Assembly (NCBI GenBank): GCA_001777915.1
Contig: MFFN01000005.1
Location: 62,001 to 126,000, forward strand
Source of the DNA: Candidatus Edwardsbacteria bacterium RifOxyA12_full_54_48
GTDB taxonomy: Bacteria; Edwardsbacteria; AC1; EtOH8
Reading direction: 5' to 3'
DNA: 64,000 nucleotides
The notes beneath the pieces are model-generated. The model worked only from the letters and a program-made list of their open reading frames with translations. It was not told the DNA's origin and did not search any database. Of the stretch, positions 19,431 to 27,183 are shown in pieces; the first letter of the stretch is position 1, and each line of letters opens with the position of its first letter. A program made the translations under genes and the position numbers.

Positions 19431-21199
<1,769 letters not shown>

Positions 21200-22904: not shown

Positions 22905-22930
22905 AAAAGCCCCCATCGGGGGGCTTTTTT
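22905..22930 (+). terminator. Rho-independent terminator after HEPN-motif gene
   Basis: AAAAGCCCCC, a three-base loop, then GGGGGGCTTTTTT. Confidence 0.9.
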
Positions 22931-23049
22931 ATTTCCCCCCACCCGTCCCAAAAATAATTCCAAAAATCTTCACCCGGGTCATTGACAAAAATTTGACAAA
23001 ACGACTATTATTAATAAAAGAACCAGGCATAAAATATATGTTAGGTTAA

Positions 23050-23305
23050 AATACACCGGCAACCGGTAAAATAACACGGGCCAATGCCCCGTAACCGCAT
23101 TTCACCGCCGCAGGGCCGCATTTTACCGGAACAATGCCAAGTATCACCGTATACCAATGCCCGTTTACCCGGCCGGAAGAACCTGGCACCACCCCGACAG
23201 GGCATAACCCCGGTCCACCCCGGCAGGGAACCTTTACCCCGGCGCATTTTACCGGTACAAAAGAATATTTCACCGGAACAATTTGGCGTTTTACCGGAAC
23301 AAGGG
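23050..23305. repeat. Degenerate tandem array with 21-bp period
   Basis: A core TTTTACCGGAACAA recurs in register: clear copies at 23121, 23247, 23268 and 23289 are spaced by multiples of 21 bp. The ACC triplet also appears on the same 21-bp grid at 23062, 23104, 23146, 23167, 23188 and 23230. In one plus-strand frame this reads as heptapeptides such as RILPEQC, RILPVQK and NISPEQF; on the minus strand as VPVK repeats. About a dozen units are recognisable. A 91-codon frame (23084-23359) crosses it but has no ribosome site, so coding is doubtful. It may be a relic minisatellite, a protein-binding array, or a decayed repeat gene. Confidence 0.7.
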
Positions 23306-23389
23306 AACGGACCACCTAAACTCCTTCTCCGTATCTGCGGGGCGGGGGGGCGGTCCTAAACCACAAACCACAACATACAAGGAGCCTGT

Positions 23390-24136
23390 ATGCCAGTCAA
23401 AACCAGCCGCACTATCGCCGCCCAGCTCAATTCCGCCCAGGTGGCCGTATCCAACGCCCTGGCCGACGCCGGCATGCTTAAACTGCTGGCGGAATACGGC
23501 TACACCGCAGCCAGGATCAAGGAGGGCCAAAAACTCTACGAGGCCGCCCGCCTGGCGGTAAACGCCCACAAATCGCTGGTCGGCAGCCAGCAGGACAAGA
23601 CCGCCAAGGTCAAAAAGGTGACCAAAAAAGCCTACGACGCCTACCAGGCGCTGGCCAAGGTGGCCCGGGCCATCTGGCTAAAGGATAAGGCCCGGCTGGC
23701 GGCCCTGGGCTTGCAGGGCAAGATGCCCAAAACCACCGCCGGATTCCTGACTGCGGCCTATATCCTGTTCGACAATGCGGCCAAGGGCGGCCTGGCCGCC
23801 GCTTCCAACCCCACCGGCCTGCTGGGTGACTACGGATATACCACGGCCAAGCTGACGGCCGAGCGGGCCAAGATCGCCGAACTGGACAAGATCAACCAGG
23901 CTCAGGAGGCGGCCAAGGGCATGGCTCAGGATGCAGCCCGCGCCCAGGACAAGGCATTAAAGGCCCTGGCCGAATGGCTGGCCCGGTTCGTGAAGATCGC
24001 CAAGGTGGCGTTAAGGGACCAGAGGGAATATCTGGAGAAGCTGGGGGTGCTGGCCAGGACAGGCAAGACCAAGGCCCAGAGGGCGGCGGCGGCCAAGGCC
24101 AGCGCGACTAAGAAGGCCAAGAAATCCGGGGCGTAG
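23390..24136 (+). CDS. Ala/Lys-rich helical protein with internal duplication
   Basis: A 248-residue, basic, almost all-helical protein. The two halves are related: LLAEYGYTAARI (~34) and LLGDYGYTTAKL (~145) start each copy, and both halves then run through Ala/Lys-rich helices ending in LAALG or LEKLG. The C-terminal ~25 residues are a Lys/Ala tail like those of nucleic-acid-binding proteins. The gene is GC-rich, unlike its neighbours on both sides. A weak ribosome site (AAGGAG) precedes the ATG. No known family is recognised; a structural or DNA/RNA-coating role is possible. It follows directly on the 21-bp repeat array. Confidence 0.7.
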   Translation: MPVKTSRTIAAQLNSAQVAVSNALADAGMLKLLAEYGYTAARIKEGQKLYEAARLAVNAHKSLVGSQQDKTAKVKKVTKKAYDAYQALAKVARAIWLKDKARLAALGLQGKMPKTTAGFLTAAYILFDNAAKGGLAAASNPTGLLGDYGYTTAKLTAERAKIAELDKINQAQEAAKGMAQDAARAQDKALKALAEWLARFVKIAKVALRDQREYLEKLGVLARTGKTKAQRAAAAKASATKKAKKSGA

Positions 24137-26196: not shown

Positions 26197-27183
26197 ATGG
26201 CTTATAGTTTTCCTGTAATTAAATTAACAGCCCCACAAAAGCTTTGGCTTGAAACAAGTGTGGCGTTCTTTTTGAGGGGTGAACCAAATGACCGTATTAA
26301 AATGAAGATACACCTATTCGGCAAGTTGGGGGAAGAATTTAATGTAGATGATATAGATGATCGTTTAATTGGTTTTGGCATGGCACCAACAATTTTGGGA
26401 TTATGGCATGTTGAGCCAAATAATAATTTGTTGCCGCTAACAGATAAAGTTATTAAATGTATACGCAATAATATAATTAAGGATTATGTAAAAAGAAAAT
26501 ATAGTGCAGAGGAAATATCTAATGAATTGGATGTTAATATAGATGATATTGAAATGGTTTTCAATTTGATGGGGTCCTTGCGTGGTTTTTGGGATGGCGC
26601 TAGTGGCAATAACATTGGTCGGTATTCCTCAATTGACATTAATCGAGAAGAAACAATAGACAATTATTTAAATTATGTTAATTTAGAGAAAATATATGAT
26701 AGAAAAGAACAACAAGTAAAAACGAGTACATATAAATTATTAGATGAAGTGTTTAACGAGCAGCCCGTTAAAGAAGAAAAGAATACTGCATTTATAATCA
26801 TGCAGATAGATAAACAGCAACCCGATTTGGAAGATACATGTAATGCCATAAAAGAGGTATGCGGTTTGTTTGATTTAAAAGCAATAAGAGCAAATGATAT
26901 TGAGCACCAAGACAAAATAACAGATGTCGTTCTTCAATATATTCGCACATCTGAATTTTTAATAGCTGATTTAACGGGTGAAAGACCCAACGTGTATTAT
27001 GAAGTTGGCTTTGCTCATGCCATTGAGAAAAGGCCAATATTATGCAGAAAATATGGAACAAAATTGCATTTTGATCTTTCAGTACATAACGTGCCAGAAT
27101 ACAAAAATAATACAGAGTTAAAAGAAATATTGACAAAAAGATTTGAGGCAATTTTAGGCAGACTACCTAAGGGAAAAGCATGA
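26197..27183 (+). CDS. Protein with nucleoside-deoxyribosyltransferase/TIR-like domain
   Basis: A 328-residue AT-rich gene product. Residues ~1-130 look like a mixed helical, possibly winged-helix, domain. Residues ~195-320 match the Rossmann-like fold shared by nucleoside 2-deoxyribosyltransferases and TIR-like NAD-processing domains: AFIIMQI as first strand, then [23 protein letters not shown] with Asp258 and Glu269. The spacing suits a catalytic Glu that attacks an N-glycosidic bond. Domains of this kind occur as effectors that destroy NAD or nucleotides in anti-phage systems, so such a role is plausible but unproven. It is the last gene before the island's right border. Confidence 0.7.

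Follow-up and report, generated by a model that had tools for sequence, protein, structure and literature searches.

A 21-bp-period DNA array of drifting sequence recurs upstream of PQLLE-family genes in several bacterial phyla

RESULTS

A degenerate 21-bp-period array precedes a PQLLE-family gene

In a 64,000-nt stretch of Candidatus Edwardsbacteria DNA (hereafter, the window), a faint direct repeat with a period of 21 bp lies directly ahead of a gene for an internally duplicated helical protein, which raises the question of what the repeat is and whether the two belong together. An earlier note on this DNA had described a strict 21-bp grid of about a dozen units and offered two explanations, namely, an array of sites for a DNA-binding protein, all facing one side of the helix, or a decayed gene for heptapeptide repeats (RILPEQx). 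The grid proved to be real. Specifically, lag-21 identity at 23050–23305 was 0.481, compared with 0.260 ± 0.029 in dinucleotide shuffles (n = 2,000), none of which matched the score of this region, either at lag 21 itself or anywhere among the lags to 79. Autocorrelation was likewise elevated at lags 42 and 63, and a scan for periods of 12 to 23 placed 23050–23305 as the top-scoring periodic region of the 64-kb window. The features of the locus are as follows:

22910–22922, (+) strand: terminator-like hairpin followed by a T-run, dividing the upstream gene from the array and its gene (consensus scan)
22982–23011, (+) strand: sigma-70-like promoter, TTGACA-18-TATTAT, just before the array (consensus scan, 11/12)
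23059–23333, no strand assigned: 21-bp-period array of ~13 units, with the consensus ttt.ACCgg..Ca.....gca in gene orientation (autocorrelation, grid, window periodicity scan, homologous arrays)
23121–23134, 23247–23260, 23268–23281, and 23289–23302: best-preserved units of the array
23380–23384, (+) strand: AGGAG, a Shine-Dalgarno-like site ahead of the ATG (direct sequence reading)
23390–24136, (+) strand: PQLLE-family protein of 248 aa with a duplicated all-helical domain and a K/R-rich C-terminal tail (NCBIfam NF052641)

When 23061–23333 is laid out on a 21-column grid, an ACC/CC block keeps a constant phase in 12 of the 13 rows, and the ~12 to 13 units run strictly in register with a mean unit-to-unit identity of 0.45, which makes the array more degenerate than the earlier wording had conveyed. 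The 14-mer core occurs exactly only twice (at 23121 and 23289), both in the window and in the whole genome, with two further copies (at 23247 and 23268) carrying one mismatch; what the remaining units retain is mainly the ACC/CC block. Because the units are so degenerate, Tandem Repeats Finder did not detect the window array. With transcription from the promoter at 22982–23011, the leader of the downstream gene would include the array; the position of this promoter is not conserved among relatives. Elsewhere in the window, the product of 19490–21199 (upstream of the array) joins an N6/N4 DNA methyltransferase to a restriction-endonuclease domain that is Mrr-like or inactive, and the C-terminal, nucleoside-deoxyribosyltransferase-like region of the protein encoded at 26197–27183 matches the PADLOC TIR-effector model (E = 1.8e-10).

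The protein encoded at 23390–24136 scored 145 bits (E = 2.4e-42) against NF052641, well above the curated cut-off of 80, and is thus a member of this family. The match is full length and spans both domains (protein residues 6–220 on positions 2–211 of the 211-position model). An AlphaFold2 model from a six-sequence alignment (mean pLDDT, 83.6) is all-helical, free of strands, and composed of two matching halves with a 56-residue helix in each (40–95 and 152–207), and profile comparison found the halves to be homologous (hhalign E = 1.7e-20). Values of dN/dS between close orthologs (0.15 to 0.44 overall; 0.19 to 0.44 for the window gene against its orthologs) indicate purifying selection. In the resources used, NF052641 is a family name with no stated function, and the 21-bp array is absent from the family model. 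There was no Pfam family match, no convincing PDB relative by sequence, and nothing below E = 0.001 in a Foldseek search of the PDB; no DNA-binding fold was recognized, the best PDB matches (E > 0.1) being generic coiled coils. The open papers searched contained no mention of PQLLE. The nucleic acid-binding-like tail pointed out in the earlier note is not general, being missing from the KSB1 and Calditrichota relatives.

The array and the gene recur as a pair

Homologues were drawn from the same family, from a genome-wide scan (the named matches of which were in Aminicenantes, KSB1, Calditrichota, and Chlorobiota), and from the phyla of two genomes matched in that scan. An upstream 21-bp array was present at 33 of the 48 homologous loci, compared with a downstream array at 1 of 46 (Fisher P = 1.3e-12), which confirms the suspected link between the array and the gene that follows it. 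The arrays ahead of PQLLE genes comprise roughly 6 to 35 direct units. Array and gene thus form a recurrent two-part cassette in several bacterial phyla, and the window array is a worn member of it. The earlier idea that older units have decayed is doubtful, as most of the relatives that look intact are likewise degenerate.

PQLLE homologues are rare: outside the window's own family, only one genome matched in a sample of 386 genomes of relatives. A tblastn search of 72,556 plasmids and 50,697 phages gave no match, IMG/VR was likewise negative, and some copies of the cassette sit on chromosome-sized contigs. Three close paralogs (L007, L009, and L010) are family genes with no array. No gene was conserved as a neighbor across the loci examined, which makes the cassette look self-contained. 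An identical contig has been binned in both a KSB1 and a Phycisphaerae genome (L013 and L014), which makes its host assignment uncertain. No description of the pair was found in the open papers searched.

Spacing is held far more strictly than sequence

In the homologous loci, the grid is conserved and the letters are not. The earlier note had named the loss of the grid at such loci as grounds for refutation, and this outcome was not seen. Among periods of 15 to 29, the best period in the homologous arrays was 21, and autocorrelation peaked exactly at multiples of 21, out to at least 210 bp, with unit identity of only ~55%. Consecutive core spacings were multiples of 21 in 253 of 257 cases and were never off by 1 or 2, in arrays whose delimitation by periodicity favors in-register units. 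The only clear exception to exact spacing is the upstream flank of L036, which alternates between 20 and 21 (period 41). So few indels among so many substitutions point to selection on phase, and across phyla it seems to be the spacing, rather than the letters of the repeat, that is kept. The arrays also contain higher-order periods of 42 and 63 bp, and their gene strand is rich in A (mean AT skew, 0.17). In two arrays (L012, 2550–3160, and L033, 1100–1455), the orientation flips midway and the 21-bp grid continues, giving an inverted array pair.

The unit sequence, for its part, turns over much faster than the gene, differs between loci, and can be replaced outright. Two loci of the same genome (L045 and L051) encode proteins that are 96% identical, and unit identity between their arrays (0.63) is no higher than that within one array (0.61 to 0.65). 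Unrelated cores are found beside proteins that are 66% to 71% identical (the window and L005 versus L006; the window and G009 versus G008). A CACC...AAAATG-like motif, oriented alike with respect to the gene, is common to related loci, and similarity of the unit motif tracks protein relatedness in that orientation only (Mantel rho = 0.32, reached in 0 of 5,000 permutations; reverse, 0.075), a correlation of which common descent may be the sole source. A core common to all arrays was sought and rejected, the motifs of unrelated loci being no better than the null. Likewise, weak/strong, purine, and keto class patterns revealed nothing common to unrelated arrays, and identity gave no half-turn (10/11 bp) substructure. 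As a separate observation, the keto (G/T) content within units of the 33 arrays showed an unexpected third harmonic (7 bp, z ~5) that was not seen by lag-7 identity.

Other 21-bp arrays in the same genome

A scan of the window's own genome for 21-bp periodicity, made independently of the protein, yielded about six non-coding arrays among coding coiled-coil repeats. This search by itself led to a half-size PQLLE relative directly beside an array (L146), and another array, at C4:719 kb, lies near a truncated remnant of the PQLLE family and is syntenic with an array of the sister genome G002. Apart from these two and the window array itself, which the scan also returned, there were three orphans; L146 and the orphans are as follows:

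L146, 9640–10580 (G000:C4, ~829.6–830.6 kb): array between a 117-aa half-size PQLLE-like gene and cas3, directly 3′ of the former (profile E = 1.5e-8; hhalign E = 1.9e-6)
L208, 15590–15725; L094, 2440–2600; and L189, 4700–4845: orphan non-coding 21-bp arrays with no recognized family member beside them

Membership of the PQLLE family was also considered for a 262-aa helical protein adjoining a C4 array and was unsupported. A defence or fixed-neighbour role was set aside, as some of the arrays in this genome are near restriction or cas genes and others near housekeeping genes. The core AACGGGACCGAT is common to the L208 and L146 arrays, and the L189 array stands directly ahead of an EcoRI-like methyltransferase and a GmrSD/HNH gene. 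At L092 (16830–17375), another half-size PQLLE-like gene, of 115 aa, is preceded by a run of ~16 CCAGA pentamers and not by a 21-bp array.

DISCUSSION

A proposed role for the array as a series of helically phased sites

Twenty-one base pairs correspond to two turns of B-DNA, so that equivalent sites in an array of this period would all face the same side of the helix. A non-coding array in which spacing is held and sequence drifts is most simply understood as a set of such one-face sites to which a protein binds cooperatively, and the tandemly duplicated helical protein, whose gene is consistently found next to the array, is the obvious candidate. We therefore propose, at about even odds, that the array consists of helically phased DNA sites, most likely bound by PQLLE, with one unit per two turns. 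Of the two options originally offered for the locus, this is the better supported, the binding itself being a prediction. The PQLLE protein, with its two tandem long-helix domains, would bind the series of equivalent sites cooperatively, perhaps with each unit taken up by one protein and each turn by one of its domains, and protein and array might together form a filament or a compacted complex. The likeliest use would be to regulate the protein's own gene or the way in which the DNA is organized locally.

The unit spacing at integral helical turns (the 253 of 257 above) is what a cooperative DNA-binding array would need. Since proteins that are so similar can stand beside unrelated cores, specificity would have to shift fast if the protein reads sequence; otherwise, spacing or DNA shape would be read rather than letters. 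Several points count against this reading: no DNA-binding fold was recognized in PQLLE, similar proteins can adjoin unrelated cores, the arrays were delimited by periodicity and L036 alternates between 20 and 21, the arrays of distantly related proteins share no common motif, and the window's own genome contains three orphan arrays with no recognized family member. More tentatively, and with less confidence than in phased sites as such, the pair might be a new bacterial nucleoprotein element, in which a spacing-defined, sequence-drifting array (a miniature satellite) is joined to a duplicated helical protein of new structure, which is dedicated to the array and reads the two-turn spacing or the DNA shape and not a fixed sequence, the whole being a self-contained cassette maintained and spread across phyla.

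Comparison with known systems

Arrays of helically phased sites have precedents as such. Iterons, the direct repeats that accompany plasmid Rep proteins, are spaced about two helical turns apart, lie next to the gene of their presumed binder, and vary in sequence between systems. The present arrays resemble them in that their units repeat directly, about two turns apart, ahead of the gene of a putative binder. Unlike in iteron/Rep systems, no Rep or winged-helix domain was recognized in PQLLE by Pfam, NCBIfam, or PDB fold (its model lacks strands), no plasmid or phage copies of the cassette were found in the collections searched (72,556 plasmids, 50,697 phages, and IMG/VR), and the array sequence drifts even between close relatives. 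The partition sites parC (bound by ParR) and tubC (bound by TubR) also recur in helical phase ahead of the gene that encodes their small binding protein, an arrangement that the arrays, with PQLLE as the candidate binder, resemble. However, no partner filament NTPase was found among the neighbors examined, and PQLLE is all-helical with an internal duplication rather than ribbon-helix-helix or winged helix.

CRISPR arrays are similar in the regular spacing of units with variable parts, but here the whole unit is 21 bp, the parts that vary are copies that have diverged and not spacers unrelated to one another, and neither cas1 nor cas2 was identified beside the arrays. TAACTGA repeats are likewise reported to be intergenic direct repeats that precede genes in several phyla, in which a fixed heptamer forms direct-repeat sets before many unrelated genes (MacGregor 2015, PMC4679880); identity with them was rejected, given the 21-bp units, variable cores, and single gene family seen here. 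No system is known to share both parts of the array/PQLLE pair. The pairing gives an uncharacterized family a candidate physical partner and hence a testable function, and it provides an unusual case, with spacing kept to the base pair and letters free, in which one can ask in vitro how a protein might read helical phase and not sequence.

Alternative explanations

It is unlikely, though the least so of the alternatives, that the array works as RNA, whether it forms the leader of the PQLLE mRNA or a repeat RNA in its own right, bound by the helical protein. The strong promoter-like site just ahead of the window array, the conserved orientation of arrays relative to the gene among related loci, and the A-rich gene strand would all suit an RNA. 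However, L008, L017, and L038 have promoter-like sites downstream of the array, between it and the gene, and transcription from those sites would miss the array, which speaks against a general leader-RNA role; no promoter layout common to the loci was found. Folding of the arrays showed no excess over shuffled sequence (mean z ~−0.5), and Rfam gave no match at the gathering score in the window or the loci. Furthermore, RNA has no need of an exact 21-bp step, and two arrays flip orientation midway.

Rather less probable is a bacterial satellite with no regulatory role, in which an unknown process of amplification and homogenization in 21-bp steps, perhaps aided by PQLLE, would generate the units. 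Their turnover, faster than that of the gene (L045 versus L051), the wholesale replacement of cores between close relatives, the 42- and 63-bp periods (which suggest block duplication), and the orphan arrays in the same genome all fit such a satellite. Plain amplification nevertheless leaves unexplained the 21-bp register of diverged units, kept almost without indels, as well as the fact that the arrays lie upstream of genes from a single family.

A still more doubtful account has a different host protein (a nucleoid protein or a regulator, for example) binding the arrays, with PQLLE as no more than the regulated gene. This would accommodate a core that varies widely between loci while the gene persists, as well as the three paralogs that have no array, but no other gene consistently adjoins the arrays, and the pairing crosses phyla in which host regulators differ.

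Finally, a decayed or real heptapeptide-repeat gene is very improbable as a general explanation: although a frame at 23084–23359 is open for 91 codons and is also open in the sister array L005, codon-phase bias is absent from the arrays, three of the six frames are open in both the window array and L005 (as expected of any 21-bp repeat with no stop in its unit), the 22 of 33 homologous arrays with an open frame fit the 17.7 expected by resampling if they are non-coding, and the other 11 are closed in all six frames, one of them with at least 10 stops per frame.
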